From Elusimicrobiales bacterium (GTDB taxonomy: Bacteria > Elusimicrobiota > Elusimicrobia > Elusimicrobiales > UBA9959): a stretch of DNA of 64,000 bases. Positions within the stretch are counted from its first letter, which is position 1; every line of letters begins with the position of its first letter. Both the position numbers and the translations under genes were made by a program. This document shows, piece after piece, positions 9,988 to 43,840 of this stretch. The DNA is taken from contig JAQTOU010000003.1 in assembly GCA_028713125.1 (NCBI GenBank), positions 186,001 to 250,000 on the forward strand. Reading direction: 5' to 3'. The notes under the pieces are model-generated. The model had not been told where the DNA came from. It ran no database searches and saw only the letters and a program-made list of their open reading frames with translations.

Positions 9988-10545
9988 ATGAACCTGCTTC
10001 CTGAAGGAAAATCCCGGGGTCTTTCCGGGCTGGCGCTGGGGGCCGCGGCGCTTTGCGGCATAATGGCGGTTAAGGCCGCTTACGACCTTTTCACGCTGCT
10101 GGAAGTTTTTTCCACCCCGGCTTTTTACCTGGCCTTGGCAAAGGCTACGGTGCCTATGGAAATGCCGCCGCTGGCCGGCCTTATGATCCACAATATGCGC
10201 TCGGTTTTTGTCTTCTCGCTTTTTTTCTGGCTTTCCGGCTTCGTTCTGGCCCTAGGCGTCAGGGCCCGCAAGGACTGGGCGCGGAGCGGGGCCGTGGCCA
10301 TGCTGTACCTGCTGAGCGCGGCCGCCCTGCTGATGCTGCTTTACCCCTGGCTCGCTATACCGCGCCCGCTGTTTTACGGAGAGGTCTCGCTTGCGCCGGA
10401 ATTCAACGCTTCCGTAAAAGCGGCGGCTTACGTAGCCAGGATAATAGCGCTCCTGCTGGGCAGCCTTTGCCTGTGGTGGGCGCTGGCCCTGGACCGGGGC
10501 GACCTGAGAAAGGAATTTTTTAAAATACCGGGAGAAAGACGATGA
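9988..10545 (+). CDS. Four-helix membrane protein, first gene of ACHx operon
   Basis: A 185-residue protein with four hydrophobic segments (about 13-35, 70-92, 98-120, 143-168) and a short charged C-terminus. I do not recognise a family. Its stop overlaps the start of the DUF2207-like gene by ATGA, so the two are translationally coupled. There is no Shine-Dalgarno site; a perfect TATAAT ends 12 bases before the ATG, implying a very short or absent leader. Context suggests a membrane partner of the DUF2207-like protein. Confidence 0.75.
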   Translation: MNLLPEGKSRGLSGLALGAAALCGIMAVKAAYDLFTLLEVFSTPAFYLALAKATVPMEMPPLAGLMIHNMRSVFVFSLFFWLSGFVLALGVRARKDWARSGAVAMLYLLSAAALLMLLYPWLAIPRPLFYGEVSLAPEFNASVKAAAYVARIIALLLGSLCLWWALALDRGDLRKEFFKIPGERR

Positions 10546-12218
10546 AAAAGAATGTCCTGAAGGTCTTTGCGGCGCTGGCCCTGGTCCTCGCCTCGGGCGC
10601 GGCTTTCGCCGGCGGCTTTAAAATGAACTGGGTCGAGACCGAGGCCGTGCTGGACAAGGACGGCAAAGCGCAGATCTCCTATGTCGTAAGGTGGGCCGGC
10701 CAGGGCGGTCAGCTGCACGGTTTTTACTTCGAGGGCTTCCAGGAAAACCCGGTGTTCGACTATGAGCGCGCTTACGCGCTGGACGATACCGGCAAGCGCT
10801 ACGGGCTTGAGATAAAAAAGCTTAACGACAGGAAGTACGATATCGTCCTGGCCGGCGGCGAGGCCTTTGCCAGCGGCGAGATCACTTATTTCTTCCGCTA
10901 CGCAGCGGACCTGCAGGCCTCGGGCAACCTTACGCAGACCATGTCGGGCGACAAGCGCCTTGCGGTCTTCAACTGGTCGCCTGTGCAGTGGGACGATCCC
11001 CTTGAGCACGAGGCGCTGGTGGTTCGATTCCCCGCCGAGCTTTCCACCCCGGCCGTTGACGAGCAGGCCCTGGCGAAGCTGGGCTTCCTGACCGAGAAGT
11101 TCGTGAACGAGAGGTATTCGATAGACTACCCTACGGTCAAGAACGCCGCCGGGAAGGACATTTTCAGCGTCCGGTTCTTCCGCAAGGCCCTAGAGAGCCG
11201 GTATCATTTCCAGGTGCAGGTCTACCTGGACGCAGCGGCCTTTAACCTGAACACCATGGCCTACGGCAGCCTTACCAAAGCCGCGCCGACCCGCACTAAA
11301 TACCTGCCCGCGGAAGAGAAATATTATATGAACCGCTACTTCCCCGGCAGCATGATAGCCGGGCTGCCGGTAAGCAGGCGGGAGACCATGTTCCTTATTT
11401 TGGCCCTGGCCGCGGCTTTCGTCGTGATTCCTTTCTTTATCATGACCATAAAGCACAATGCGATGCTGACGGCGCAGGCCGGCATTTCCAATATCAACTG
11501 GGAGGCGGCGGACTGGACGCCGCCGAAAACCCAGGTCAGCAGTTTCCGCGTGCCCGGCAAGATAGCCAAGAACCTCAGCCCGCTGGAGGCGGGGGTGGTG
11601 ATGGGACTGCCGCTGGCCGAGATGCTCGGCCTCATGGTCGCGAATATGGAGCGCAAAGGCCTGCTTAAGGTCGTGAACTATTCCCCGCTGACCGTCGAGC
11701 GCCTCCCCGGGATAAGCTCGAGCAACGATCCCTATGAATCGGCCCTGCTTTCGGCGATGAAACCGGACGGGACCCTGGACCAGGCCGTCGCTGAATCAGC
11801 CCTGAAGACCCTGACCGCCGGGCTGGAGCAGAAGCTCTGGGACTGCGACCTGGAGGCTACAAAAAAATATTACAGGGACGAAGTAGAAAGCTACGGCCAC
11901 CGGGAGACGGACACCGACAGGGGCTATTACTGGGGCGGCTACCACCGGCATTATTACGGCAACCGGAACAGCCCGTACTACGACAATGCCGTCAAGGCCG
12001 GGGACGGGCTCACGGCTTCGCTGCCGAAAGACCTGAGCGCCGGGTTCGATTCTTTCCGCGGCTCGAAGTCCTGCTATGAAGGAGCCTTCGCGAATTCCGC
12101 CTGCCACGACGCCTGCCATTCGGCCTGCCACGACGCCTGCCATTCGGCTTGTCACTCGGCGTGTCATTCCGCCTGCCACGGGGCCTGCCATTCGGCCTGC
12201 GTGAGCAGCGGGCATTAA
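10542..12218 (+). CDS. DUF2207/YciQ-like membrane protein with C-terminal ACHx repeats
   Basis: A 558-residue protein. Signal peptide at 1-23 (ASGAAFA), extracytoplasmic beta-rich domain at about 24-278 like the N-terminal part of DUF2207 proteins, one membrane helix at 281-303, then a cytoplasmic region with LSPLEAGVVMGLPLAEMLGLMV, the helical module typical of that family. The tail is unusual: residues 520-551 are eight ACHx tetrapeptides (x = D, S or G), then ACVS and SGH. The topology puts the tail in the cytoplasm, where the radical SAM enzyme encoded 43 bases downstream could reach it. Metal binding is the main alternative. The start overlaps the upstream stop by ATGA. Confidence 0.8.
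   Translation: MKKNVLKVFAALALVLASGAAFAGGFKMNWVETEAVLDKDGKAQISYVVRWAGQGGQLHGFYFEGFQENPVFDYERAYALDDTGKRYGLEIKKLNDRKYDIVLAGGEAFASGEITYFFRYAADLQASGNLTQTMSGDKRLAVFNWSPVQWDDPLEHEALVVRFPAELSTPAVDEQALAKLGFLTEKFVNERYSIDYPTVKNAAGKDIFSVRFFRKALESRYHFQVQVYLDAAAFNLNTMAYGSLTKAAPTRTKYLPAEEKYYMNRYFPGSMIAGLPVSRRETMFLILALAAAFVVIPFFIMTIKHNAMLTAQAGISNINWEAADWTPPKTQVSSFRVPGKIAKNLSPLEAGVVMGLPLAEMLGLMVANMERKGLLKVVNYSPLTVERLPGISSSNDPYESALLSAMKPDGTLDQAVAESALKTLTAGLEQKLWDCDLEATKKYYRDEVESYGHRETDTDRGYYWGGYHRHYYGNRNSPYYDNAVKAGDGLTASLPKDLSAGFDSFRGSKSCYEGAFANSACHDACHSACHDACHSACHSACHSACHGACHSACVSSGH
12099..12206 (+). repeat. 12-base coding repeat array encoding ACHx units
   Basis: Nine in-frame 12-base units encode ACHD, ACHS, ACHD, ACHS, ACHS, ACHS, ACHG, ACHS and the diverged ACVS. 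Synonymous codons differ between units (GCC/GCT/GCG for Ala, TGC/TGT for Cys, CAC/CAT for His), so the peptide pattern is kept while the DNA has drifted. Confidence 0.9.
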
Positions 12219-12261: not shown

Positions 12262-13611
12262 ATGGATAAAAGAGAGTGGGTAAAGCGGGTGGACTGGATC
12301 GACGGTTATGCCGCGCGCATAAAGCCTTATGTGCGCGTGCGCCCCGCTGATTCTTTGCTGATAAAAATACCCAACCAGACCCATAAGCTAAACCCGCAGG
12401 GGCTTAAGCTGCTTAAATTCCTCTTCGACGGCGGCAAAGCCGTTTCGGTGGTGGAGAAATATCCCGAGGATCAGCGGGAGCAAATTTCTTTGGACATGTA
12501 TTATTTCTTCCGCGACCTGATGGCCCTGCTGAAGGGCTGCTACGATGAGCGGGAAGAGCGCCGCGCGGTGGAGACCAAAGAATTCGCACTGGGCCACAAT
12601 AGCCTGCCGGTGCTGAGCGAGATAGCCGTCACCTACCGCTGCAACCTGGCCTGCAAGTTCTGCTACGCCGGCTGCGGCTGCCGCAAGGACGAGGAGCACC
12701 CCGACCTCCCCGCCGGGGACCTTAAAAAGATATTGAGCATAATAAAAGAAGAGGCCGAGGTCCCGTCCGTCAGCTTTACCGGCGGGGAGCCGCTGCTCCG
12801 GCCGGAGATCCCGGAGCTGGTGGCCCACGCAAAGTCGCTCGGGATGTGGGCCAACCTTATAACGAACGGGACCCTCGCCACGGAAGAGACCGTGCAGAAA
12901 CTCAAGGCCGCCGGCCTGGATTCCTCGCAGGTCAGCGTCGAGGCCGGGAATGAGGCCGAGCACGACGCTATAGCCGCTTTCCCAGGCGCTTTTAAGCGAA
13001 CTGTGCGCGGTATAGAGAATCTGATGAAGGCAGGGCTGCGCGTGCACACCAACACGACTATTTCGGCCCTTAATAAAAATTCGCTCGAAGGCATTTTGGA
13101 CCTGGTAAAAAGCCTGGGCCTGAAAAAATTCTCGATGAACCTGCTGATGCCGGTGGGCTCCGCGGGGAAGAATTTCGACGAGACCTTCGTCTCCTATACC
13201 GAGGCGGGGCCGCTGGTAGAGAGGCTGAAAGAGCTGGCCGAAAAGCGCGGCCTTGAATTCATGTGGTATTCGCCCACGCCCGTCTGCATCTTCAACCCGA
13301 TAACCCGCGGGCTGGGCAATAAAGGCTGCGCCGCCTGCGACGGGCTCCTTAGCGTCGCTCCCAACGGCGACGTGCTGCCCTGCTCCAGCTACCCGAAGCC
13401 GCTTGGGAATATCCTTCATGAGCGCGGGAATTTTAAAAAGCTCTGGGCCCGCGAGGACTTCGCCTGGTTCAGGGGGAAAAGCTTCGCCCACGAAAAGTGC
13501 AAAGCCTGCCGGTACCTCGCGGTCTGCAACGGGGGCTGCCCGCTTTACTGGGAAAAGACGGGCTACGCCGAACTTCTGGCCGCCGAGGCCGCGATGGGGA
13601 GGATAGAATGA
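12262..13611 (+). CDS. Radical SAM/SPASM protein with PqqD-like N-terminal domain
   Basis: A 449-residue protein. Residues about 22-95 look like a PqqD-type winged helix (RiPP recognition element). The radical SAM core has the CX3CX2C cluster motif at Cys127, Cys131 and Cys134 and a GGEP motif at 174-177. The C-terminal SPASM region has Cys342, Cys356, Cys359, Cys374 and then CX2CX5CX3C at 413-426, enough for two auxiliary Fe-S clusters. Such enzymes (PqqE, AhbC/NirJ and RiPP maturases) modify peptides or tetrapyrroles. Lying just after the ACHx-tailed gene, it is the natural candidate to modify that tail; this is inference. Extra Cys138 and Cys140 follow the core motif. Confidence 0.9.
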   Translation: MDKREWVKRVDWIDGYAARIKPYVRVRPADSLLIKIPNQTHKLNPQGLKLLKFLFDGGKAVSVVEKYPEDQREQISLDMYYFFRDLMALLKGCYDEREERRAVETKEFALGHNSLPVLSEIAVTYRCNLACKFCYAGCGCRKDEEHPDLPAGDLKKILSIIKEEAEVPSVSFTGGEPLLRPEIPELVAHAKSLGMWANLITNGTLATEETVQKLKAAGLDSSQVSVEAGNEAEHDAIAAFPGAFKRTVRGIENLMKAGLRVHTNTTISALNKNSLEGILDLVKSLGLKKFSMNLLMPVGSAGKNFDETFVSYTEAGPLVERLKELAEKRGLEFMWYSPTPVCIFNPITRGLGNKGCAACDGLLSVAPNGDVLPCSSYPKPLGNILHERGNFKKLWAREDFAWFRGKSFAHEKCKACRYLAVCNGGCPLYWEKTGYAELLAAEAAMGRIE

Positions 13612-14645
13612 GCATATTGCCGCCGCCGCAAAAAGACGGGGAAATAAAATTCATGCTGGCCAAGGGCCTGCCGTACCGGTCGCGCATGACTTTGGTGGGG
13701 CTGCTTCTGACCCTGGGCCTGGGCCTGCAGCTTACAATCGGCTTCTGGCCCGGCCTGTGGGCCCTGGTCGCGGCGATGCTGATAGGGATAAATTCCGGCT
13801 ACGAGGCCGCTCCGAAGCTGACCGGCGAAGAGACCTGGGAGAAAGTCACCCCGGACGAGTACGCCAAAGTGCGGCTTAAGGCCGACCAGCTGAAAAAATG
13901 GGACGAGGACCTTTTCGACGGGAGCAGCATACGCGGGCTGGCGGGCTTCTTTGCCGCCGGAGTTGCCTGCCTCGCCGCTTATATCGCGGCCGCCGAAAGG
14001 TGGTCTTTCCCGGACGGCTCCTGGCTTTATTTCGGCCTGGACGCCGCTGTCCTGATCTTCCCGATGTGGTTCATAGGTACGCGCGACTATCTCAAAAAAG
14101 ACCGCCTGATCATAAAGATAAACATGCTCGAGAAGGTCATGGAGGCGCTGAAAGACCCAAGCGACGTGCAGGTGCAGCCGATGCTCGCCCTCGACGCCAC
14201 CGAGAAAGGCGGCAAAGTTCCGGAAGACGCAAGGCTGATGGTAAAACTCGTGGGCGCGCCCAAAGATTTCTACGGCCTGCAGGTGCAGCTCTCGGTGAAC
14301 AGCGTGCAGGGCAAGGACTACCCGTACCTCTACTGCGTGCTTATCGCCAAAGCCGGCTCCGGCCTGCTTGCGAAGTATGAAGAGTTCACCGTGCGGCCCG
14401 AAAGCTCCGGCGTCTCCGACTTCGTGAAAGCTTTGTTCGGGATGGACCGGACCGATATACTGTACGAGTCCAGCCGGTCCGGCGAAGTGGACATCATAGT
14501 GGTGCGCCAGCTCACCACGCGCACCAGCGGTTACTACACCTCTCCCGGCGCGGCCCTGGGCGTGGTGGACGCGGCGCTCAAGCTGGCCCGCGCGCTTGTG
14601 GCCGCTAACGCTAAGCCCGCTGTTGAAAAGAAGGGCGGGATTTAA
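13608..14645 (+). CDS. Membrane protein, last gene of ACHx operon
   Basis: A 345-residue protein of unrecognised family. Four hydrophobic segments lie at about 28-45, 48-63, 109-128 and 139-157; residues 160-345 form a soluble domain of mixed alpha/beta look. The start overlaps the radical SAM stop by ATGA (13608-13611) and has GGGAGG upstream, so it is translationally coupled to it. This start is preferred over upstream in-frame codons that lie inside the radical SAM gene. The coupling suggests a shared pathway, but no function can be read. Confidence 0.78.
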   Translation: MSILPPPQKDGEIKFMLAKGLPYRSRMTLVGLLLTLGLGLQLTIGFWPGLWALVAAMLIGINSGYEAAPKLTGEETWEKVTPDEYAKVRLKADQLKKWDEDLFDGSSIRGLAGFFAAGVACLAAYIAAAERWSFPDGSWLYFGLDAAVLIFPMWFIGTRDYLKKDRLIIKINMLEKVMEALKDPSDVQVQPMLALDATEKGGKVPEDARLMVKLVGAPKDFYGLQVQLSVNSVQGKDYPYLYCVLIAKAGSGLLAKYEEFTVRPESSGVSDFVKALFGMDRTDILYESSRSGEVDIIVVRQLTTRTSGYYTSPGAALGVVDAALKLARALVAANAKPAVEKKGGI

Positions 14646-14720
14646 TAAGATATATAGGTATCGCCACTCCAATTTCTTTGGACCGTGACTTTCTCACCGG
14701 CAAACGCCAACCGAGGTAAT

Positions 14721-15554
14721 ATGTGGAACTATACAGATAAAGTCTTCGAACATTTCAAGAACCCCAAGAACGTGGGGGAGATAGAGAACCCCGACGGCAT
14801 CGGAGAGATCGGCAGCATAGTCTGCGGCGACGCCCTCAAGCTCACCCTCCGCATAGACAAAGCCTCCGACAAGATCACCGACGCCAAGTTCAAGACCTTC
14901 GGCTGCGCCAGCGCCATCGCCTCCTCCTCCGCCCTCACCGAGATGGTGAAAGGCCTCACCCTGGACGAAGCCGCCAAGATCACCAACCAGCAGATAGCCG
15001 ACTACCTCGGCGGCCTCCCCGGCGAGAAGATGCACTGCTCCGTCATGGGCATGGAAGCCCTCGAAGCCGCAATAAAGAACTACCGCGGCGGCAAAGCCGA
15101 AAAAGTCATCATCGGCCAGGCCGAAAAGATAGTCTGCAAATGCTTCAGCGTCACCGATTCCGTCATCCTCAAAGCCATCAAGCTCAACAACCTCCACACC
15201 ATAGAAGAAGTCACCAACTTCACCAAAGCCGGCGGCGGCTGCCGCCAGTGCCACGGCGAAATAGAAAAACTCCTTAAAGACTACTGGGCCGAAGCCGAAC
15301 ATAAAAAATTCGACAAAATGACCGTAGTCGAGAAAATAAAAATAATAGAAAAAGTCCTCGCCGAAGAAATAAACCCCAAGCTCAAAGCCGACGGCGGCTG
15401 GATGGAGCTCGTCGACATCCAGGGCCAGAAAGTAAAACTCCGCTTCCTAGGCATGTGCCACGGCTGCCCCTCTTCGGGCGCCACCTTAAAGAACGTAGTG
15501 GAGAAAGAATTGCGCGAGAGAATCGACCCCGCGATAGAAATAGAGGCTGAATAA
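14721..15554 (+). CDS. nifU: Three-domain Fe-S scaffold protein NifU
   Basis: A 277-residue protein with the full NifU layout: IscU-like domain with Cys35, Cys62 and Cys106; a central [2Fe-2S] BFD-like domain with Cys139, Cys141, Cys174 and Cys177; and a C-terminal NifU domain with Cys246 and Cys249 (CHGCP). The positions nearly match the classical nitrogen-fixation NifU. It builds Fe-S clusters using sulfur from the NifS encoded downstream. No nitrogenase gene is present, so it is probably the general Fe-S assembly system, as in some anaerobes. GAGG precedes the ATG. Codon use is strongly C-ending (CTC, GCC), unlike the preceding operon. Confidence 0.95.
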   Translation: MWNYTDKVFEHFKNPKNVGEIENPDGIGEIGSIVCGDALKLTLRIDKASDKITDAKFKTFGCASAIASSSALTEMVKGLTLDEAAKITNQQIADYLGGLPGEKMHCSVMGMEALEAAIKNYRGGKAEKVIIGQAEKIVCKCFSVTDSVILKAIKLNNLHTIEEVTNFTKAGGGCRQCHGEIEKLLKDYWAEAEHKKFDKMTVVEKIKIIEKVLAEEINPKLKADGGWMELVDIQGQKVKLRFLGMCHGCPSSGATLKNVVEKELRERIDPAIEIEAE

Positions 15555-15566
15555 TCGCTTGCCGGA

Positions 15567-15702
15567 GGGGAGACCGCACGGGCCAGGTTAGCAAAAGCCC
15601 GTCGGAAGGCGAGGCTTGCGTAAGCGCCGAGCCTGAGACCGGCAGGCGCGCGCACGGTGTGCGCGACGCCGGTTTTGCGTTCTGGCCCGTGCGGTAGGCC
15701 CC
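15567..15702 (+). other. Structured intergenic element, copy A
   Basis: A region of about 136 bases between nifU and nifS bounded by GGGG/CCCC and a perfect 14-bp stem (15573-15586 with 15682-15695). Inside are GCAAAA/TTTTGC arms and a hairpin CGCGCAC-GGT-GTGCGCG. The reverse complement of 29212-29340 aligns to it with the same order of GGTTAGCAAAA, CCGTCG, GGCAGGCG, CACGGTGTG and GTTTTGCGT. It could be a mobile MITE-like element or a structured RNA; the conserved core and differing outer stem sequence suggest the fold matters. Confidence 0.65.
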
Positions 15703-15745
15703 GACTTCACATCTCGCGGTGCAGTTGCAGTTCTGAGGAAATCAT

Positions 15746-16945
15746 ATGGAAAAAGTCTATTATTTCGACAATAACGCCACCAGCCGCGTCGCCCCCGAAG
15801 TCGCCGCCGAGATGCAGCCCTTCTTCAACGACCTCTACGGCAACCCCTCCAGCATGCACTTCTTCGGCGGCGCCAACCAGAAATACCTCGACCTCGCCCG
15901 CCAGCGCGTCGCCGCCCTCCTCGGCGCCGCCCCCGAAGAAATAGTCTTCACCAGCTGCGGCACCGAATCCGACTCCACCGCCCTCTGGGCCGCCGTCCGC
16001 GCCTTCCCCGACAAAAAACACATCATAACCACCAAGGTCGAGCATCCCGCCGTCCTCAACGTCTGCAAATTCCTCGAAACCCAGGGCTACCGCGTAACCT
16101 ACCTCCCCGTAGACAGCACCGGCCAGCTCAACCTCGCCGACCTCCAGGCCGCCCTCACCCACGAAACAGCCATCGTCTCCATCATGTGGGCAAATAACGA
16201 GACCGGCGTGATCTTCCCCGTAGAAGAAGCAGCCCGCATTTCCCACGCCAAAGGCGCCCTGTTCCACACCGACGCCGTCCAGGCCGTAGGCAAGCTCCCG
16301 ATAAACCTCAAAGACACCAAGATCGATTTCCTCTCCCTTTCCGGCCATAAACTCCACGCCCCCAAAGGCATAGGCGTGCTCTACATAAAGAAAGGCTCCC
16401 GCTTCGCCCCTTTCATGATGGGCGGCCACCAGGAGCACGGCCGCCGCGCCGGAACCGAGAACGTCCCGTACATAGCCGGCCTCGGCAAAGCCGCCGAGCT
16501 CGCCGCCGCCAACCTCGAAAAAGAAAACACCTACGTAAAAGACCTTCGCGACCGCCTCGAAGCCGGCCTTTTAAAGATCCCCAATTCCCGCATCAACGGC
16601 GGCGGCGCTAACCGCCTCCCTAATACCACAAATATCAGTTTCGAATATATAGAAGGCGAGTCCATCCTCCTGATGATAAGCGAGAAAGGCATCTGCGCCT
16701 CCTCCGGCTCAGCCTGCACCTCCGGCTCCCTAGAGCCCTCCCACGTCCTCATGTCCATGGCCGTCCCCCAGACCTACGCCCACGGCTCGGTGCGCTTCTC
16801 CCTCAGCGTCTACAACACCGAGGAAGAAGTCGACTATATAATAAAGGAATTCCCGCCCATCATAGAGCGCCTGCGCTCCATCTCGCCCTTCGCCGACGGC
16901 AAGCCCCTGTTCGGCATGGAATCCTGCGAGCCGCATAAGCACTGA
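15746..16945 (+). CDS. nifS: Cysteine desulfurase NifS
   Basis: A 399-residue PLP-dependent class V aminotransferase-fold enzyme that takes sulfur from L-cysteine as a persulfide for Fe-S assembly on NifU. Visible: N-terminal YFDNNATS, PLP lysine Lys202 in SLSGHKLHAPKG, and catalytic Cys324 in ASSGSACTSGS, as in group I (NifS/IscS-type) enzymes. GAGG lies upstream of the ATG. The 191-base gap from nifU contains structured element A, which could set relative expression. It shares the C-rich codon use of nifU. A terminator follows. Confidence 0.95.
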   Translation: MEKVYYFDNNATSRVAPEVAAEMQPFFNDLYGNPSSMHFFGGANQKYLDLARQRVAALLGAAPEEIVFTSCGTESDSTALWAAVRAFPDKKHIITTKVEHPAVLNVCKFLETQGYRVTYLPVDSTGQLNLADLQAALTHETAIVSIMWANNETGVIFPVEEAARISHAKGALFHTDAVQAVGKLPINLKDTKIDFLSLSGHKLHAPKGIGVLYIKKGSRFAPFMMGGHQEHGRRAGTENVPYIAGLGKAAELAAANLEKENTYVKDLRDRLEAGLLKIPNSRINGGGANRLPNTTNISFEYIEGESILLMISEKGICASSGSACTSGSLEPSHVLMSMAVPQTYAHGSVRFSLSVYNTEEEVDYIIKEFPPIIERLRSISPFADGKPLFGMESCEPHKH

Positions 16946-32615: not shown

Positions 32616-32895
32616 CATCCCCGCGGTTATCCTTAGTGGCGCCGCGCTCGGAACTTTGAGCGGCTGGGGTTCGCGGCTGGCCATGAAGAGGGTGCTGAAC
32701 TCCTCCGATAAAATTTTTTATCTCGTTTTCACGACGGGCTTTTTTCTGCGCTTCGCGCTTCTTTTGGGCGGAATTTGCATGCTCCGCCATCAAAAAGTTA
32801 TACTAATAGTCTCGTTTACGGTTTCCTTTATCCTGGTTCAGATGGCTTTCGAGGCGTTTCCGCTGAAAAAAAATGGGATTAAAAGAAATACTTGA
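32605..32895 (+). CDS. AtpI/AtpR-like small membrane protein
   Basis: A 96-residue protein with three to four hydrophobic segments, placed where ATP synthase subunit I lies. The sequence is not distinctive, so the name rests mainly on position and size. The start is probably TTG at 32605, overlapping the previous stop; GGGGGAGG lies very close upstream (2 bases), so the exact start is uncertain. Its end overlaps atpB by 23 bases. Confidence 0.65.
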   Translation: MINNIPAVILSGAALGTLSGWGSRLAMKRVLNSSDKIFYLVFTTGFFLRFALLLGGICMLRHQKVILIVSFTVSFILVQMAFEAFPLKKNGIKRNT

Positions 32896-33634
32896 GCACC
32901 ACATCGTCGACCATGTCTGGTCCTGGGTAAACCTGGGGCCCCTCCGCCTCCCGATCTCGAAACATCTGCTGATGATGGGCATAGCCTCGCTCATCATGCT
33001 GGTCGGCCTGCCCCTCCTGATCCGAAGCCGCGCCAAGGCGCTCGCCCCTTTCCGCTCCATCATAGAGATCATCGTGCTCTTCCTGCGCGACGAAGTCGTG
33101 TACCCGAACCTCGGCCATAAGGGCGATGGCTACATGGGGTATTTCTCAACGCTCTTCTTCTTCATCCTTACCCTTAATCTTATAGGCCTGGTCCCGTTCG
33201 GGGCCACCGCCACCGGGAACCTCGCTGTCACCGCGGGGCTCGCGCTTACCACTTTCGTGCTGATAAATTTCGCCGGCATCAGGGAGCAGGGCGTGATCGG
33301 CTACTTCAGCCACATCGTTCCCAAGGGCGTTCCGGGCTGGCTCTACCCTCTTCTTTTCCCGATAGAGCTGATCGGCATGGTCACCAAAGCCTTCGCGCTC
33401 TGCATCCGTCTTTTCGCCAATATGATAGCCGGTCACATCGTTATTTTGGCCTTTATCAGCTTTATCTTCATCTTCGGCTCGCTCAGCGCGATAGTCGGCT
33501 TCGGCGTGGCGCCGATCTCGGTCGGCCTGGTGCTGTTCACGCTGATGCTCGAGCTGTTCGTGGCTTTCCTGCAGGCTTACGTTTTCGTGTTCCTGACCGC
33601 GATCTTCACCGGCGCGGCGATGCACCCCCATTAA
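32873..33634 (+). CDS. atpB: F-ATPase subunit a
   Basis: A 253-residue membrane protein of the Fo stator. The key helix ELIGMVTKAFALCIRLFANMIAGHIVILAF contains the essential arginine (in ALCIRLFANM) that faces the c-ring carboxylate; the last helices (FVAFLQAYVFVFLTAIFTGAAMHPH) are also typical. It starts inside the previous gene and is followed after 41 bases by atpE with a strong Shine-Dalgarno. Confidence 0.95.
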   Translation: MGLKEILEHHIVDHVWSWVNLGPLRLPISKHLLMMGIASLIMLVGLPLLIRSRAKALAPFRSIIEIIVLFLRDEVVYPNLGHKGDGYMGYFSTLFFFILTLNLIGLVPFGATATGNLAVTAGLALTTFVLINFAGIREQGVIGYFSHIVPKGVPGWLYPLLFPIELIGMVTKAFALCIRLFANMIAGHIVILAFISFIFIFGSLSAIVGFGVAPISVGLVLFTLMLELFVAFLQAYVFVFLTAIFTGAAMHPH

Positions 33635-33675
33635 GATTTGCGACGGTTTTTAATATTACACGGAGGTAGTAAAAA

Positions 33676-33972
33676 ATGAACGACATGACATTCCTCGGAC
33701 TCGGCTACATCGGCGCAGGTTTAGGCGCGGGCCTGGTGCTTATCGGCGCCGCCCTCGGTATCGGCAAGCTCGCCGCCGCCGCCCTTGACGGGACCGCCCG
33801 CCAGCCCGAAGCCGGCCCCGCGCTCCGCACGACCATGATCATCGCCGCCGCCCTCATAGAAGGTCTCGCCTTCTTCGGCCTGGTCATCTGTCTGCTGGCC
33901 GTGATGAACTTCGCGATGCCCAAGTCCGAAGCCGGCCCTGCCGCCGCCGCTCAGACCGAAGCGCACAAATAA
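33676..33972 (+). CDS. atpE: F-ATPase subunit c
   Basis: A 98-residue two-helix proteolipid forming the c-ring. Glu62 in AAALIEGLAFFGLV is the ion-carrying carboxylate; the polar loop RQPEAGPALR (42-51) is conserved. The usual Na-binding partners (Gln in helix 1, Ser or Thr after the Glu) are absent, so proton coupling is more likely. CGGAGGTAG precedes the start. An extra Ala-rich, charged C-terminus of about 18 residues follows helix 2. The hairpin downstream may protect this mRNA segment, since c is needed in many copies. Confidence 0.95.
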   Translation: MNDMTFLGLGYIGAGLGAGLVLIGAALGIGKLAAAALDGTARQPEAGPALRTTMIIAAALIEGLAFFGLVICLLAVMNFAMPKSEAGPAAAAQTEAHK

Positions 33973-34067
33973 AGAATCGAGAATCAGGGATCGAGAATCG
34001 GGGATCGCGGAAGATGATCCGCTCCCGGTTCTTAGTCCCGGATTCATGATTCCCGATTCTCGATTCT
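33973..34067 (+). repeat. Inverted GAATCG repeat between atpE and atpF
   Basis: A perfect 13-bp stem (33973-33985 with 34055-34067) built of GAATCGA units, with further imperfect GGGATCG/GATTCCC pairing inside. It starts at the atpE stop and ends 16 bases before atpF. It lacks a T-run and the operon must continue through it, so it is more likely an mRNA-stability or partial-attenuation element than a terminator. Confidence 0.65.
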
Positions 34068-34083
34068 CGACTGGAGTAATTAT

Positions 34084-34602
34084 ATGGAAGCATTGATTAG
34101 GCCCGAATTCGGCCTGACTTTCTGGACGATACTCTGTTTCGGCCTCCTGGTGCTGCTGCTGTCGCGGACGGCCTGGAAGCCGCTGATGGACTCGGTCAAC
34201 GAGCGCGAGCGCGCCCTGAAGCACGACCGCACCACCGCGGAGACGGCCCGCGCCGACGCCGAGAAGCTCAAAGCCGAGCTGGACGCCAAGCTCGCCGACC
34301 TGAAGTCGGAGATAGGGCGCCGCATGGACGAGGCCCGGGTCACGGCCGAGAAAGAGAAGGACCTCCTTATAGAAGAGGCCCGCAGCGCCGCCGCTGTCAT
34401 CGTCGAGTCCTCCCGGAAAGAGATCGAGGCCCAGAAGATCGAGGCCGCCCGCGAGCTCCGTCACAAAGTGGCCGAGCTTTCCGTGATGGCCGCCGAGCAT
34501 ATACTTGTAAAGCAGCTGGACCACCGGGCCAATACGGACCTGGCGTCAAAATACCTGGCCGAGCTCGAGAAAGAAAGGCCCGACCTGAAGCTGGAGTGCT
34601 GA
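34084..34602 (+). CDS. atpF: F-ATPase subunit b
   Basis: A 172-residue protein with one N-terminal membrane helix (about 11-30, FWTILCFGLLVLLLSRTAW) followed by a long charged helix, the peripheral-stalk coiled coil joining Fo to subunit delta and F1. GGAG lies upstream of the ATG. Its stop directly abuts the atpH start. Only one b gene is present, so the stalk is probably a b2 homodimer. Confidence 0.93.
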   Translation: MEALIRPEFGLTFWTILCFGLLVLLLSRTAWKPLMDSVNERERALKHDRTTAETARADAEKLKAELDAKLADLKSEIGRRMDEARVTAEKEKDLLIEEARSAAAVIVESSRKEIEAQKIEAARELRHKVAELSVMAAEHILVKQLDHRANTDLASKYLAELEKERPDLKLEC

Positions 34603-35157
34603 ATGGATTCTAGCGCCAAGATACTCGCCAAACGCTACGCCAGGGCCTATATGGACCTGGACGGCAAGGCTTACAGCGCGGCCGCGCAGACGGCGTCCCT
34701 CGCCAAGCTCGAGGCCCTGCGCGTGGTCTTCTCGGCGGCGAAGCCCCACCTTAAAATACTTATCCACCCGGCGATCAACAGCGGCGTAAAGCTGGAGGTG
34801 CTGGGTAAGGTGCTCGGCGCCGGGATCACCGGGCCGGCCGCCGATTTCGCCGGCCTGCTGGTGCGGCAGGGCCGCTTCGGGCTGTTCGAAGAAGTGATGC
34901 GGCAGTGCCTGGCCCTCAACGATATTTTCTGCGGCGTGGTGCAGGCCGAGGTCAGCAGCCGCTACGCCCTTTCCGAGGGCGAAGTGGCGAGGATAGACAA
35001 GATGATAGGCTGCGTCACGGGCAAGAAAGTGAGCCTCAGCCAGATAATTTCAGAGCGGGTCATCGGCGGTTTCGAGATAAAAGTGGGCGACGCGCTGATA
35101 GACGCCACGGTGCGCGGCAGGCTGGACGCCCTGCGCGCCGGACTGTTGAAAGGTTAA
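34603..35157 (+). CDS. atpH: F-ATPase subunit delta
   Basis: A 184-residue soluble protein. The N-terminal helical bundle ([13 protein letters not shown], residues 6-18) and C-terminal [33 protein letters not shown] are hallmarks of AtpH, which caps F1 and binds the b stalk. It begins directly after the atpF stop, using GGAG inside the end of atpF. Confidence 0.94.
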
Positions 35158-35179
35158 ACTCTCTCCCTATAAGGATCTT

Positions 35180-36694
<1,515 letters not shown>

Positions 36695-36700
36695 GACTGA

Positions 36701-37627
36701 ATGAAAAGATATCTCGTCACCGGCGGAGCGGGCTTCATAGGCTCCAATTTGGCTTTCGCGCTTGAGAAAGAGCGGAAGGCCAAGGTCACGGTGCTGGATA
36801 ATTTCTCCTCCGGCAATTATAAGAACCTTATCGGGTTCGGCGGGGACGTCATCGCGGACGATATCCAGTCCCGTAACTGGTTCGAAAAGGCCGGCAAGAT
36901 GGACGCCGTCTTCCACCAGGCCGCGATCGTGGACACGACCGAGGCCGACCAGCGCCGGATGATGGAAGTGAACGTCGACGCCTTCCGCAATGTCCTGGAT
37001 TACGCGCTTAAATACGGCGTGAAGCGCGTCGTCTACGCCTCCTCCGCCGCCGTCTACGGGAATTCGAAGTGCCCGATGCACGAAGGGCAGGAGACCACGC
37101 CCGAGAACGTCTACGGCTTCTCCAAAGCCATCATGGACAATGTCGCGCGGGACTTCGCGGCCGACCACAAGGACATGACGCTGGTGGGGCTGCGCTATTT
37201 CAACGTCTACGGCCCCCGCGAATATTACAAGGGAAAGATGGCCAGCATGATGTTCCAGCTCTACAACCAGATGAAAGCCGGCAAGCGGCCGCGCATCTTC
37301 AAGTTCGGAGAGCAGATGCGGGACTTCGTCTACGTGAAGGATATCGTGCGCGGGAACCTTAACGCTTTGGACGCGGAAAAATCCTGCGTCTGCAACCTGG
37401 CCAGCGGCAAGCCCGGGAATTTCAACGAGGTCATAGAGGCCCTTAACAAGGCGATGAAACTGGACCTGGCGCCGGATTATTTCGATAACCCTTACTCCTT
37501 CTACCAGAACAAGACGCAGGCCGACCTGCGCCTGGCCAAGGCCCACCTGAACTACAGGCCGGAATGGAGCCTGGAGGACGGGATCGCCGACTACGTTAAA
37601 ATTTTAGAAAAAGCCGGGAAACTTTAA
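36701..37627 (+). CDS. HldD-like ADP-heptose epimerase inside the atp operon
   Basis: A 308-residue extended short-chain dehydrogenase. NAD(P) loop GGAGFIG (8-14), Ser114/115 in VYASSAAVYG, catalytic Tyr138 and Lys142 in NVYGFSK, and GLRYFNVYGPRE-x-YKGKMASMMFQ plus RDFVYVKD, which closely resemble ADP-glyceromanno-heptose 6-epimerase. That enzyme makes the ADP-L-heptose used in LPS inner core. It sits between atpA and atpG with gaps of 6 and 3 bases, so it must be cotranscribed with the ATP synthase. Another sugar-nucleotide epimerase is possible. No heptose kinase or transferase gene is near. Confidence 0.82.
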   Translation: MKRYLVTGGAGFIGSNLAFALEKERKAKVTVLDNFSSGNYKNLIGFGGDVIADDIQSRNWFEKAGKMDAVFHQAAIVDTTEADQRRMMEVNVDAFRNVLDYALKYGVKRVVYASSAAVYGNSKCPMHEGQETTPENVYGFSKAIMDNVARDFAADHKDMTLVGLRYFNVYGPREYYKGKMASMMFQLYNQMKAGKRPRIFKFGEQMRDFVYVKDIVRGNLNALDAEKSCVCNLASGKPGNFNEVIEALNKAMKLDLAPDYFDNPYSFYQNKTQADLRLAKAHLNYRPEWSLEDGIADYVKILEKAGKL

Positions 37628-37630
37628 TTT

Positions 37631-38533
37631 ATGGCCTCATTAAGGGACATCAAAAAGAACATCTCTTCGGTCAAGAGCATCAAGCAGATCACCTACGCCA
37701 TGAAGATGGTGGCGGCGGCGCGCATCAAGCGCGCCCAGAACTCCATCCTGTCCGCCCGGCCTTTCGCGCTCAAGATGGAGAGCCTGATAGACGACCTTTA
37801 CCACGAGCTGGGCGAAGAGGACCTTTCCGGAACCGTGGTCAGCCAGCTATTCGAGGAGCGCCCCGCCGGAGGCACGCTCTGCCTGCTCCTCGTCACCGCG
37901 GACAAAGGGCTTTGCGGCTCTTTCAATACCAATCTGCTCAAGGCGGCTACCGCCTGGCTGAAAGAGAACCGCGGCCGGAAGATCTGCGTGGTGGCGGTCG
38001 GGCGCAAGGGCAGGGATTTCATGCACCGCCTGAAGGGCCTTGACCTGGAGATCGCCCACGAGATGGTCGGGATCTTCCCCAAGGCCGGCTACGTGCACGC
38101 CCAGATGCTGTCGGACGCCATATTGAAGCTTTACCGGGAGCGCCCTATCGAGAGCGTCACCTTCATCTACAATGAGTTCAAGTCGATGATGACGCAGAAT
38201 ATCGTCAGGGGCCAGCTGCTTCCGCTCAAGCGCAGCATACAGAACGACAGGCAGGCGCCGCAGCTCACCAGCGGCCTGTTCTCTTTCGAGCCCGGCAAGG
38301 CCGCCCTGCTCGGCGAGCTGATCCCCCGCAATCTCGGCGCCCAGCTTTACAGGACGCTGCTCGAGTCGCAGGCGGCCGAGCTGGCCGCGCGCATGAACGC
38401 GATGGAATCGGCCTCCAAGAACGCGACGGAGCTGATAGAAGGCCTCACTTTGAAGATGAACAAGACGCGCCAGGCGATGATCACCACCGAGCTGAACGAG
38501 ATCGTCAGCGGCTCGGAAGCGCTCAGCAATTGA
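37631..38533 (+). CDS. atpG: F-ATPase subunit gamma
   Basis: A 300-residue rotor subunit. N-terminus SLRDIKKNISSVKSIKQITYAMKMVAAARIKRAQ and C-terminus ESASKNATELIEGLTLKMNKTRQAMITTELNEIVSGSEAL are the two long helices of the coiled coil; LLVTADKGLCGSFNTN is the conserved central motif. It begins 3 bases after the epimerase stop, with GGGAAA weakly positioned as ribosome site. Confidence 0.95.
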   Translation: MASLRDIKKNISSVKSIKQITYAMKMVAAARIKRAQNSILSARPFALKMESLIDDLYHELGEEDLSGTVVSQLFEERPAGGTLCLLLVTADKGLCGSFNTNLLKAATAWLKENRGRKICVVAVGRKGRDFMHRLKGLDLEIAHEMVGIFPKAGYVHAQMLSDAILKLYRERPIESVTFIYNEFKSMMTQNIVRGQLLPLKRSIQNDRQAPQLTSGLFSFEPGKAALLGELIPRNLGAQLYRTLLESQAAELAARMNAMESASKNATELIEGLTLKMNKTRQAMITTELNEIVSGSEALSN

Positions 38534-38559
38534 TTTGGTTTGCATTATATTCTGCGTAA

Positions 38560-39993
<1,434 letters not shown>

Positions 39994-40011
39994 GCCGGCA
40001 CAGCTGGGCAT

Positions 40012-40440
40012 ATGGAAAAAAAGCAACTCCTACTCACCATCGTAACCCCCGAGAAGACAGTCGTCTCGCAGAAGCCGGTAGATTCCGTCACGATCCCGGC
40101 TTTCGGGGGTGAGATGGGGGTGCTGCCCGGTCACGCTTCCTTCGTGGTGCAGTTGGTGGAAGGCATCCTGCATTATAAGGACGGCCAGCATAAAGAGTTC
40201 TTCGCCGTGCTGAACGGCTTCGCCGAGATCCACAAGGACAAGGTGATGGTTCTGGCGGAATCGGCCGAGCTCTCCAAGGAAGTGGACGAGGAGCGCGCGC
40301 GGCAGGCTTACCAGAAGGCTAAAGAGATGCTTGTCCTGCGCCACGGCGACCTGGACCTGGACGAGGCTAATGCGGCCCTGCGGAGAGCCGCGGTCCGTAT
40401 GAAAGTGGCCGAGTTCAGGCGCAAGCACAAACCGCAGTAA
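40012..40440 (+). CDS. atpC: F-ATPase subunit epsilon
   Basis: A 142-residue protein with an N-terminal beta-sandwich (TIPAFGGEMGVLPGHASFV, hallmark PAFGGEMGVLPGH) and a C-terminal helical hairpin (about 88-140), the part that can inhibit ATP hydrolysis. It is the last gene of the F-type operon; a strong terminator follows. Confidence 0.94.
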   Translation: MEKKQLLLTIVTPEKTVVSQKPVDSVTIPAFGGEMGVLPGHASFVVQLVEGILHYKDGQHKEFFAVLNGFAEIHKDKVMVLAESAELSKEVDEERARQAYQKAKEMLVLRHGDLDLDEANAALRRAAVRMKVAEFRRKHKPQ

Positions 40441-40457
40441 GGCCGCCTCCAGCCCTT

Positions 40458-40490
40458 AAAATACCCCGCCCCCGCGGGGTATTTTTTTTT
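40458..40490 (+). terminator. Rho-independent terminator of the F-ATPase operon
   Basis: AATACCCCGC pairs with GCGGGGTATT around a C-rich loop and is followed by a T-run. It separates the F-type and V-type operons. Confidence 0.92.
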
Positions 40491-40491
40491 A

Positions 40492-40521
40492 TTGCTTTTT
40501 TCGCTTTTGTTTTGCTAATCT
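40492..40521 (+). promoter_or_regulatory. Probable promoter of the V-ATPase operon
   Basis: TTGCTT with TAATCT after 18 bases (or GCTAAT after 16) between the F-ATPase terminator and the first V-ATPase gene. The match is moderate. Confidence 0.45.
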
Positions 40522-40560
40522 GACCTTGGGGGAACATCATCATAACTTAATGCAAGCAGG

Positions 40561-40582
40561 GCCCGGACCTTGCCGGGCTTTT
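40561..40582 (+). terminator. Attenuator-like hairpin before the V-ATPase operon
   Basis: GCCCGG and CCGGGC pair around a 6-base loop and are followed by TTTT, ending only 4 bases before the ATG at 40587. In this position it would either attenuate the V-ATPase operon or hide its start. Confidence 0.55.
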
Positions 40583-40586
40583 ATCC

Positions 40587-40898
40587 ATGCGCGCCGTAAT
40601 AGCCGAAATACTCGCCGCAGAGGCGGAAGGCAGCCGTTTGACGGCCGCCGCGCGGGCGCGCGCCCCGGAAATAGTCCTAGCGGCTAAAAAGCGGGCCGCG
40701 GAACTGGGCGCCGCCGCGCTGGAAGAAGCCCGGGCGGAGGCAGAAAGAGCCTCGGCCGCGGCGTTGGAGTCGGCCGCGCGGGAAAAAGCCGCTCTCCTCG
40801 AAGCAGCGGCGGGAGAAATAGAGAGGACCTGCGGGCTGGACGAAGCGGCCCGCCGCCGCGCGTCCCTTGAAGTGGCGCGGCTTTTGCTCGGGCTGTAA
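40587..40898 (+). CDS. V-type ATPase subunit H/G-like stalk protein
   Basis: A 103-residue Ala/Glu/Arg-rich, fully helical protein that looks like the AhaH/subunit G partner of subunit E in the peripheral stalk. The assignment rests on composition, length and first position in the operon. There is no Shine-Dalgarno site, and an attenuator-like hairpin ends just before the ATG, so the start codon is a little uncertain. Confidence 0.7.
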   Translation: MRAVIAEILAAEAEGSRLTAAARARAPEIVLAAKKRAAELGAAALEEARAEAERASAAALESAAREKAALLEAAAGEIERTCGLDEAARRRASLEVARLLLGL

Positions 40899-40907
40899 AG
40901 GGGGCTT

Positions 40908-41930
40908 ATGATAGTGGCGGGGGACCTCGATAATCTGTCCGCAAGGCTGCACGGCCGGCGCGCCCGGCTTGCCGCCGGCGAGCGGTTGTGGTCGCTCTGC
41001 GCCCTGGAGACGACCGGGGCCCTCGCCGCGGCTTTATTCCCCGGTCCCGCCGTTCCCGGACCGGCGCGCCTCCAGAACAGGCTCGCTGAAAATTTCGTTC
41101 ATGAGGCGCGGGAGCTCGCCGACGTCCTGGGCGGCGCTCGCGCCAGGTTCGTTGAATGGGCCGCGGCGCGGCTGCAGGTGGAAAACCTGAAGGTCCTGGT
41201 CCGGGCCCTGGCGGCCGGTTTTCCTCCGGCGGCCGCGCGGCCGCTTCTTATCCCGCTGCCGGGCTGGCCGGAAGTCTACGGGCCTGCGGCGGAAGCCGAA
41301 ACTCCGGACGCCCTCGTGGAGGCCCTCCCGCGGGGAGTTCTTCGCGACAGCCTCAGGCGGGCCTACGAAGTTTATCCCGACAGGAGCCGTTCGTTTTTTT
41401 ACGAAGCCGCGCTCGACCGGGATTACCTCGGAGAGCTTAAGGTCAGGCTGGCCGGGCTTTCCGCCGCGGACCGGGAATATACCTCCGCGCTTGCGCGCCA
41501 GGAAACGGCCGTCTTCGACCTGATGCTCGCGGCCCGGGGCAGGTTCTTTTACGGCATAGAAAAAGAAAAATTAGCCGGCTTGTTCGCCCCGGGTTCCGGC
41601 ATAGACGGCAGGAGATTCTCGAAAATGCTCGATTCCGGCGGCGTGGCCGCGCTGCGCTCCCTGGCTTCCGGGCTGGCCTTGGAGGCCGGCCCGCCCGAGC
41701 CAAACCCCTCGGCGCTGGAGGCGCTGGCCTGGGGGCGCTACGCGCGCCTGGCCGCGCGCGGTTTCAGGGGAACGCAGACCGGTTTCGGGGCGGTGGCCGG
41801 CTATCTTGCGCTTCGCCGCCTGGAGGTCTCTAATCTTACGACAGTATCGGAAGGCCTGCGGCTGGGAGCGCCGGCGGAGGAGCTGCGGGGAAGGATGCTT
41901 CCGCACGGCGGGGGGCCGAATAATGTTTAG
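40908..41930 (+). CDS. V-type ATPase subunit C (d-like)
   Basis: A 340-residue soluble, mostly helical protein of the V-ATPase C/AC39 family that links the central stalk to the membrane ring. Recognisable features are the ENFVHEARELADVL and QVENLKVLVRALAAG helices, a repeat-like RRAYEVYPDRSRSFFYEAALDRDYLGEL segment and the C-terminal GYLALRRLEVSNLTTVSEGLRLG, including the typical LRRLEVxNL. GGGGG lies before the ATG. The end overlaps the subunit I gene by 8 bases. Confidence 0.87.
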   Translation: MIVAGDLDNLSARLHGRRARLAAGERLWSLCALETTGALAAALFPGPAVPGPARLQNRLAENFVHEARELADVLGGARARFVEWAAARLQVENLKVLVRALAAGFPPAAARPLLIPLPGWPEVYGPAAEAETPDALVEALPRGVLRDSLRRAYEVYPDRSRSFFYEAALDRDYLGELKVRLAGLSAADREYTSALARQETAVFDLMLAARGRFFYGIEKEKLAGLFAPGSGIDGRRFSKMLDSGGVAALRSLASGLALEAGPPEPNPSALEALAWGRYARLAARGFRGTQTGFGAVAGYLALRRLEVSNLTTVSEGLRLGAPAEELRGRMLPHGGGPNNV

Positions 41931-43839
41931 CCCCGTGAAAATGTCCAGGCTCGAGGCCGTTCTGCTTCAAAAGGACGCACGGGCCGTCCTGCGCGGGCTC
42001 GGCGCGGCCGGGGCGCTGGAACTCGCGGCCCCGGCGCCCGGTCGGGAGACGGCCCCGTCCGCCCCGGCGGATAATCGCCGGGCGCTGGCCGCCTGCGCCG
42101 GGCTGATAGCGCGGGTGGAGGCCCTCCGCAGGGAGCTCGGCGTCGCCGGGCGTGCCGGGGCTCCCGGGCTGGAGCTGGATTATAAGTCGGCCTCCGCCGC
42201 GGTAGCGGAGTGGGAGCTGCGGGCTTCGGCCCCGCTGGGAAAAAGGAGGAACCTGGCCGCGGAAGCCGCCCGCCTTTCGGCGGAAAAAGAAAGGCTGGCG
42301 GTTTACTCCGGGCTGCCGCTCCCGGCGGAGAGCTCCGGTTTCTCCTATCTTTTTTGCTCCGTCGGGATCGTTCCGGCGGGCAGCCTGCCGGCGCTTGGCT
42401 CTAAAATATCCGGCAATGCCGTGCTGCTCCCGCTGGCCGGAAATGGGAACTGCTTGCGTCTGGCCGCGCTGGCCGGCAGGTCCTCCGGCGCGGCCCTGGC
42501 GGCCGAACTGAAAGCAGCCGGCTTCCGGCATGAGGAGGCGCCAGCGGGAGCCGTTCTCGGGGAACTCGCGGCTTTCTATTCGGCCGAGGCGGGGCGCGCG
42601 GAGCGGGCCCTGAAACTGGCCGGGCGGGAAATAGCTTCGCTCGCGGCCCGGGCCGCCGGGCCGCTGGCCGCCGCGGAGCGCGCCCTGATAACGGAGTCCC
42701 GTCTTCTCGAGGCCGAACAGAATTTACCCCGTACCGAAGCCGCCGTGTTTTTTTCCGGCTGGACGCCGTCCGGGGACGCGCTCCGGGTAAGCCGGGCGCT
42801 CGGCAAGGCTTCCAGCGGGCGCTGCGCCGTGGAAACGGAAGAGGCGGCGCCCGGCGGCGGGGCGCCGGTGCTTCTGCGGCCTCCGCGGCTGCTGCGGCCC
42901 TTCGCGGCGCTGGTAAGCGGCTACGGCCTGCCCCGCTACGGCGAGGCCGACCCAACGGCTTTCGCCGCGCTCAGCTTTCTTATGATGTTCGGCATGATGT
43001 TCGGAGACCTGGGGCACGGGGCGGCGCTCTGCCTGGCCGGCGGCTGGCTGGCGCGCCGGCGCGGAGTTAAAGAGAGGGAGGCCGGGCGCGCTGTCTTCGG
43101 CTGCGGGCTCTCGGCGGCTTTTTTCGGACTGGTCTACGGGAGCTTTTTCGGCCTGGAGAGTTTTAAAAAGTACGCGCTCTGGAGGGATCCTCTGGCGGGG
43201 GACCCTCTGGCGCTCCTGTCCGCAGCGGTAGCGGCGGGGGGCGCCGTGATCAGCCTGGGGGTAATTCTGAATATTTTCAACCGCGCGCGGCTCGGCGACA
43301 GGCTGGGCGCCGCGCTGGACCGGTTCGGGGCCGCCGGGCTGGTTTTTTACTGGGCGGCGCTGCTTCTGGTTTCGGGCAGGGCCGGGACCGGCGCGCTTTT
43401 CTTTATGGGCGCGGCAGCTGCCTGCTGGGTCTTGAAAGAACCTCTTCTTTATCTGTTCGGGCCGCTCGGAGCGGCTAAAGACGGGAATGACGGCTTTGCC
43501 GCCGTCGCCGCCGGAGCTGCGGTCGGGGCTTTCGAGGGGGCGCTTCTTTATCTTGCAAATACCGTCAGTTTCGTCCGTCTCGCGGCTTACGCGATCAGCC
43601 ACGCCGCGCTCCTAGCCTCGGCCTGGGCGCTCAAAGAAGCGGCCGACAGGGCCTGGGGAACGAACAGTTTCGCGGGTATACTCGCCCTTATCGCAGGCAA
43701 TGCGGGCGCCCTTGGGCTGGAAGGCCTGGTGGCGGCAGTTCAGGCGCTGCGCCTGGAGTATTATGAATTCTTCGGGAAATTCTTCGAAGGCGGCGGCCGG
43801 CCTTTCAGGCCGTTCGTCCTGGGAAATAAAGGGGGCTAG
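41923..43839 (+). CDS. V-type ATPase subunit I (a-like)
   Basis: A 638-residue protein: a soluble N-terminal half (about 1-315) with coiled coil, then seven to eight membrane helices. LSFLMMFGMMFGDLGHGAAL is the conserved first-helix motif, and NTVSFVRLAAYAISHAAL contains the essential arginine (in FVRLAAYAISHA) facing the proteolipid ring. The start at 41923 is chosen over an upstream in-frame ATG because it has a G-rich ribosome site and begins MFSPVKMSRLEAVLLQ, as in other I subunits. Confidence 0.92.
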   Translation: MFSPVKMSRLEAVLLQKDARAVLRGLGAAGALELAAPAPGRETAPSAPADNRRALAACAGLIARVEALRRELGVAGRAGAPGLELDYKSASAAVAEWELRASAPLGKRRNLAAEAARLSAEKERLAVYSGLPLPAESSGFSYLFCSVGIVPAGSLPALGSKISGNAVLLPLAGNGNCLRLAALAGRSSGAALAAELKAAGFRHEEAPAGAVLGELAAFYSAEAGRAERALKLAGREIASLAARAAGPLAAAERALITESRLLEAEQNLPRTEAAVFFSGWTPSGDALRVSRALGKASSGRCAVETEEAAPGGGAPVLLRPPRLLRPFAALVSGYGLPRYGEADPTAFAALSFLMMFGMMFGDLGHGAALCLAGGWLARRRGVKEREAGRAVFGCGLSAAFFGLVYGSFFGLESFKKYALWRDPLAGDPLALLSAAVAAGGAVISLGVILNIFNRARLGDRLGAALDRFGAAGLVFYWAALLLVSGRAGTGALFFMGAAAACWVLKEPLLYLFGPLGAAKDGNDGFAAVAAGAAVGAFEGALLYLANTVSFVRLAAYAISHAALLASAWALKEAADRAWGTNSFAGILALIAGNAGALGLEGLVAAVQALRLEYYEFFGKFFEGGGRPFRPFVLGNKGG

Positions 43840-43840
43840 G

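Follow-up and report, generated by a model that had tools for sequence, protein, structure and literature searches.

A conserved ACHx-repeat tail on a DUF2207-type membrane protein as the probable substrate of its paired radical SAM/SPASM enzyme

Why does a bacterial membrane protein end in a strict array of Ala-Cys-His-x tetrapeptides, and is the radical SAM gene that directly follows it concerned with that array? The question is raised by a stretch of 64,000 nucleotides from an Elusimicrobiales bacterium (the window), in which a 558-aa membrane protein (hereafter mem) is followed by a gene for a radical SAM/SPASM enzyme (rSAM) and by a third gene (dn; Table 1). The initial annotation had described the array as eight tandem units, called it very unusual, and suggested that it might be a substrate for modification or a strand that binds metal or haem. 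Translation agrees with that description: residues 520-551 are eight ACHx units in which x is, in order, Asp, Ser, Asp, Ser, Ser, Ser, Gly, and Ser, followed by ACVS and a terminal SGH, with the stop codon at 12216-12218. Comparative analysis of the array, its neighbors, and their distribution leads us to regard the mem tail as the probable built-in substrate of the paired rSAM.

Table 1 Features of the tail-bearing locus (positions in the window)
Feature	Position	Strand	Basis
Upstream gene, 185 aa, four hydrophobic segments, close relatives only	9988..10545	+	overlaps mem start, ATGA
mem, tail-bearing DUF2207-type membrane protein, 558 aa	10542..12218	+	ORF translation
mem signal-peptide-like N-terminus, residues 1-24	10542..10613	+	hydrophobic peak 5-23; model helix 2-17, ectodomain from 25
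mem predicted extracytoplasmic beta domain, residues 25-235	10614..11246	+	VIA-align fold matches
mem transmembrane helix, residues 283-301	11388..11444	+	hydropathy; model helix 279-315
mem cytoplasmic motif WDCDLEATK, residues 433-441, candidate recognition site	11838..11864	+	conservation
mem C-terminal tail (ACHx)8-ACVS-SGH, residues 520-558	12099..12215	+	translation
rSAM, radical SAM/SPASM enzyme, 449 aa, proposed tail maturase	12262..13611	+	Pfam; 35 homologues
PqqD-like (RiPP recognition element) N-terminal domain of rSAM, residues about 12-105	12295..12576	+	PF05402 matches in homologues
rSAM cluster motif CNLACKFC (C127, C131, C134)	12640..12663	+	invariant, 35 sequences
rSAM SPASM cysteines C342, C356, C374, C413, C416, C422, C426	13285..13539	+	invariant, 35 sequences
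dn, third core gene, 345 aa membrane protein, cytoplasmic C-terminal domain	13608..14645	+	start overlaps rSAM stop, ATGA

The array is well past what chance would give, as a DNA pattern for three consecutive CHxx units was found nowhere else in the bacterium's own genome nor in 45 relatives without the gene, while the reversed pattern, used as a control, gave 0 matches across all 61 genomes. Each of the 16 carrier genomes had six overlapping matches, and all listed positions lay inside the mem gene. The annotation had further noted that synonymous codons differ among units and had taken this as a sign of selection on the peptide. Codons do vary between units (GCC/GCT/GCG, TGC/TGT, CAC/CAT, and TCG/TCC), and among 14 close homologues the tail differed by 1405 synonymous versus 95 amino-acid codon differences, compared with 12293 versus 15188 in mem outside the tail; these counts are summed over all pairs, whose lack of independence makes the contrast a descriptive one, though large. 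The few amino-acid differences mainly concern the choice of Ser or Gly in late units and the terminus. Recent DNA duplication as the origin of the array is rejected on these codon counts. The order of x (Asp, Ser, Asp, Ser, Ser, Ser, Gly, then Ser or Gly) stays the same even in genomes that share 56% protein identity. Across 36 aligned tail proteins, whose mean column identity is 41%, Ala, Cys, and His of most units are invariant and the others are at least 90% conserved in aligned columns, with Cys and His invariant in the last units and largely conserved in earlier ones. The 52 distinct tails collected have 3 to 10 units, with x being Ser (301 times), Asp (70), Gly (30), or another residue (8); unit number changes in frame, an example being the three units in one genome of genus g16.

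The protein that carries this tail was annotated initially as DUF2207-like, with a signal peptide and one membrane helix that would place the tail in the cytoplasm. Hydropathy and the predicted structure both fit the signal peptide and single helix, and the tail is accordingly predicted on the cytoplasmic side. As to the family assignment, 16 of 36 aligned homologues match PF09972 (best 6.7e-9), and mem itself reaches 13.1 bits against a Pfam cut-off of 24.4. In the structure model (mean pLDDT 82.7), the beta ectodomain is predicted confidently, the cytoplasmic part is mostly helical, and the tail is helical with low confidence. The modeled ectodomain resembles ribophorin I/Ost1 (VIA-align Z 16.0, rmsd 2.6 over 179 residues) as well as the N-domain found in M1 aminopeptidases (Z about 13), a likeness that gives a predicted fold for mem, not a function. 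Within the motif WDCDLEATK, in the predicted cytoplasmic part ahead of the tail, W433, D436, A439, and T440 are invariant and D434 nearly so among the 36 aligned homologues, which span several phyla.

By the terms of the initial annotation, its reading would have been refuted had homologues of mem regularly lacked the tail; the tail is present in every intact homologue found. Among 61 genomes (own genome plus 60 relatives, with rSAM counted at E below 1e-60), mem, rSAM, and the CHxx array are all present in the same 16 and all absent from the other 45 (Fisher's exact test, p 5e-15, on genomes that are related and not independent). A phylum-wide search matched mem in 26 of 341 genomes, with the tail in all homologues that have a readable C-terminus. 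One genome (G139, locus L183) retains only a short remnant of the mem ectodomain between an ACT-domain gene and a NifU-type gene, the same flanking genes as those of the window module, which suggests that the module was lost at the same chromosomal place.

Beyond the phylum, a scan of genome contigs for four CHxx units returned at least 118 loci, but on translation many of these turned out to be short frames of no relation or simple DNA repeats. The likewise short (CHAE)n or (CHTE)n frames on Parabeggiatoa and Thioploca contigs (L145 and L072) are probably simple DNA repeats as well. Among the matches listed, at least 21 loci form a clear class in which (ACH[SDN])n leads into a C-terminal ACVSGGxH or ACHSGGSF, including forms such as (ACHS)7-10-ACVSGGxH outside the own phylum; these come from Myxococcales, Acidobacteria, Kiritimatiellae, Chloroflexi, Planctomycetota, Abditibacteriota, Proteobacteria and Gammaproteobacteria, Spirochaetales, Aminicenantes, and Deltaproteobacteria. 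The Chloroflexi locus, on a contig of only 3.2 kb, is doubtful, while several others are on contigs of considerable length (514 kb, 415 kb, and 113 kb), which makes mis-binned scraps an unlikely source. Inspection of gene neighbors, which the initial annotation had proposed, placed rSAM beside repeat-bearing proteins across lineages together with a third conserved gene, and the complete order mem-rSAM-third gene was seen, among the matches listed, in Planctomycetota, Spirochaetota, Myxococcota, Kiritimatiellae, Abditibacteriota, Aminicenantes, Acidobacteria, and Proteobacteria. The cross-phylum tail proteins are homologous to mem along their length, their adjoining rSAM enzymes share 37-50% identity with that of the window, and the third gene comes next in most.

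The linkage to the enzyme is strict in these lineages too. One rSAM orthologue is present in 19 of 20 tail-bearing genomes picked by DNA pattern alone, the contig of the twentieth ending inside rSAM, and every rSAM relative at or above about 37% identity has an ACHx tail adjoining unless a contig end intervenes. Sampling of Planctomycetota found rSAM in 13 of 294 genomes, with the tail alongside wherever the contig reaches, apart from one divergent case described below; in a sample of one gammaproteobacterial carrier's phylum, that genome was the only positive (1 of 249). Distance matrices of mem (without the tail) and rSAM correlate at r = 0.946, or 0.829 outside the own phylum, and those of rSAM and the third gene at r = 0.875, or 0.724 outside the own phylum, in each case above every permutation.

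What kind of enzyme accompanies the tail so consistently? Pfam assigns Radical_SAM (97.7 bits; cut-off 29.5) and SPASM (37.4 bits; cut-off 21.5) to rSAM, and its cluster and SPASM cysteines are intact throughout the homologues. The best solved relatives by profile are the sactipeptide maturase SkfB (2.9e-33) and PqqE (1e-28). NCBIfam returned no equivalog above cut-off among the 25 best-scoring models, and the haem-pathway models AhbD (157.7 bits; cut-off 500) and NirJ (116; cut-off 515) were far from being reached; among the best matches, no NCBIfam or Pfam model describes mem and rSAM as a pair. The first 110 residues of rSAM are of interest for substrate recognition: 12 of 25 homologue N-termini match PF05402 (PqqD) weakly (best 3e-4), while each other family was matched by one member only. 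The window rSAM alone gave no match, and a sequence and profile search of the PDB with this region found nothing useful. The PqqD-like matches support a recognition domain in rSAM, short of proving it. Elsewhere in the same genome (G000), about a dozen more radical SAM genes related to rSAM lie on contig C7 at 14-82 kb.

The rSAM gene starts 43 bases past the mem stop. The dn product is predicted with high confidence (pLDDT 90.7) as two hydrophobic hairpins plus a C-terminal domain. Type III secretion chaperones and YbjN-like proteins make up most of the top structural matches, at VIA-align Z no higher than 7.8 and so just below the safe level; Foldseek gave nothing under E 0.001. That fold, if right, would be a peptide-binding one and would suit a tail-binding role. 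As a lead, dn may be a membrane-anchored tail-binding chaperone. A conserved core of more than three genes was considered and rejected, as clustering of flanking genes gave none common across phyla with one exception, a membrane gene that lies upstream both in Spirochaetota and at one myxobacterial locus; a LemA gene lies upstream of one module. In the window, NifU-type and NifS-type genes lie directly 3' of the module (14685-16945), a neighborhood that may be incidental given that the remnant in G139 has the NifU-type gene next to it as well. Farther along, the window (32873-48874) apparently holds both F-type and V/A-type ATP synthase clusters.

The one divergent Planctomycetota case bears on whether the tail is what the enzyme acts on. 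At this locus (G642, L231:2911-5919), a radical SAM/SPASM enzyme with 34% identity to the window rSAM has as its neighbor a DUF2207-type protein whose Cys-rich tail is of another type, GGGGCACAGCACACACAGGGR; the enzyme gene comes first, followed by that for the 579-aa DUF2207-like protein, whose tail is GGGGGGCACAGCACACACAGGGR. This protein is related to mem in its cytoplasmic part (hmmsearch 8.9e-21, that domain versus a single sequence). The nearest relatives of its enzyme in the sample are ACHx-type enzymes, and a search for further relatives of this enzyme with its CACA tail found ACHx-type enzymes only. Enzyme subfamily and tail type therefore switch together in this single case, which fits the tail as substrate, and the locus may represent a system of the same kind that has a second type of tail. 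Two other loci carry extra tail proteins without an rSAM of their own: a proteobacterial one (L235:4575-11484) with a tail protein, rSAM, third gene, second tail protein, and second third gene but a single rSAM, and a myxobacterial one (L069:449-3136) with a tail protein and third gene but no adjacent rSAM, the genome's only rSAM of the family belonging to a separate module, L084. One enzyme may thus serve two substrates.

Taken together, we hold it likely, if by no means certain, that these genes form a three-gene maturation module in which rSAM iteratively modifies the mem tail, dn binds or presents that tail, and the tail becomes a metal or redox element. Cytosolic rSAM would recognize mem through its PqqD-like N-terminal domain and dock on the cytoplasmic part of mem, for which WDCDLEATK is a candidate motif, and the tail would then be modified unit after unit. 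The conserved Cys and His, together with the relation of rSAM to SkfB-type maturases, point to Cys as the most likely site of change, through a thioether link or another Cys-centered change, with the invariant neighboring His as a partner or part of the finished site. The cytoplasmic domain of dn would bind or present the tail during this process. Since the conserved core encodes neither peptidase nor exporter, the product would stay on mem, and the finished tail would remain at the inner membrane face, where it would probably bind metal or act as a redox element within an envelope complex. A bolder version, which we consider speculative and rather unlikely, is that rSAM makes a ladder of Cys-His or Cys-backbone cross-links, giving a membrane-anchored strand that carries metal or electrons on the cytoplasmic face. 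If true, this would be a genetically encoded, protein-embedded cofactor built from eight or more units, and we know of no earlier description of a cross-linked cofactor of this kind.

Maturation by rSAM has to be weighed against readings in which the tail is left alone or put to another use. An unmodified tail could serve as a metal-binding strand, a store or sensor for Cu, Zn, Ni, or Fe, with rSAM making or modifying another molecule of the pathway: Cys and His in alternation form a classic set of soft-metal ligands, variation between 3 and 10 units with Cys and His fixed is as for binding capacity, and Streptococcus mutans that has lost DUF2207 is affected in its tolerance to acid and oxidative stress, with biofilm effects too (PMC10457818). 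Such a strand leaves unexplained the constant adjacency and co-evolution of an rSAM with a PqqD-like domain, as well as an Ala and a mostly Ser or Asp position kept nearly as strictly as the ligands, and we judge it a serious but unlikely reading. The typical architecture of peptide maturases would also be compatible with a modified tail that is cleaved from mem and leaves the cell as a free peptide, a classical exported natural product, mem being only its carrier; we find this improbable, given a conserved core without the genes for cleavage or export and domains of mem that are themselves conserved and co-evolving with rSAM.

Attachment of haem is a further use to consider, as the haem c motif has CX3CH variants, each pair of units (C-H-x-A-C-H) contains overlapping CX3CH, and rSAM is related to haem-pathway radical SAM enzymes. 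Overlapping motifs are not all usable at once, however, haem c attachment occurs outside the cytoplasm whereas the mem tail is predicted inside, and rSAM falls under the AhbD and NirJ cut-offs, all of which makes a covalent haem strand very improbable. We give next to no credence to a tail that has no special function and arose by expansion of a low-complexity DNA repeat: in-frame changes in unit number, such as the three units in the g16 genome, are as expected, but the order of x has been kept despite codon turnover, and Ala, Cys, and His are invariant in most units over many lineages.

Maturation of the tail by rSAM, if correct, would add an apparently undescribed radical SAM module that spans about a dozen bacterial lineages. 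Its probable substrate would differ from a small precursor peptide in being a tail that stays permanently on a large membrane protein. As each unit has a conserved Cys-His pair, any chemistry there would be repeated about 7-10 times per chain and should be easy to detect. The module thereby makes radical SAM action on structural, non-secreted proteins testable and provides a functional lead for the DUF2207 family.

How does this module compare with systems already described? DUF2207 proteins, often beside LemA, share with mem the predicted layout of signal peptide, ectodomain, membrane helix, and cytoplasmic domain; mem differs in bearing an ACHx tail at its C-terminus and in having rSAM as its partner. 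A link to 5-thiohistidine through a DUF2207/OvoA neighborhood was rejected by the authors of the paper concerned (PMC12631010). Searches of the mainly non-subscription literature found nothing relevant on ACHSACHS or on TIGR04117/ACGX with radical SAM, and no pairing of DUF2207 with radical SAM. Known candidates for modification also include the TIGR04222 membrane proteins beside MNIO (DUF692) enzymes, in which a Cys-rich, low-complexity C-terminus likewise accompanies a putative modifying metalloenzyme (PMC12452194). Their tails are Gly/Ser-rich with scattered Cys and predicted to be periplasmic, whereas that of mem is a strict ACHx array predicted to be cytoplasmic, and MNIO belongs to another enzyme superfamily than rSAM; in NCBIfam, mem had no TIGR04222 match, its sole match being a weak one to TIGR04117.

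Pairing of repeat-bearing targets with radical SAM enzymes is itself known from several systems. Repeated action of a radical SAM enzyme has been described for TvgB/TvgA, in which TVGG is the repeat and the formation of cyclopropylglycine is proven (PMC9062424), although this system has a small precursor peptide, dioxygenase and transporter genes, and modification at Val, not Cys or His. The ACGX (TIGR04340) and Cxxx (TIGR04117) systems resemble the module in combining a radical SAM/SPASM enzyme with a target that has four-residue Cys repeats; rSAM scores 93.2 bits against the TIGR04340 cut-off of 400, and mem 11 bits (E 0.35) against the TIGR04117 cut-off of 50, that model spanning only 98 residues while mem is a 558-aa membrane protein with ACHx repeats. 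For the Cys-every-fifth system, rSAM reaches 80.1 bits against the NF038107 CefB cut-off of 600. The Hxs systems share a repeat target with His and Ser and radical SAM maturation, but use an HxsB/HxsC pair where the module has a single rSAM and an ACHx repeat, and the best model for rSAM is HxsC4 (97.7 bits versus 500), with no other Hxs model among the 25 best-scoring. Falling below the cut-offs of the named families tested, the module is therefore filed with none of them, though in outline it appears to work like them.
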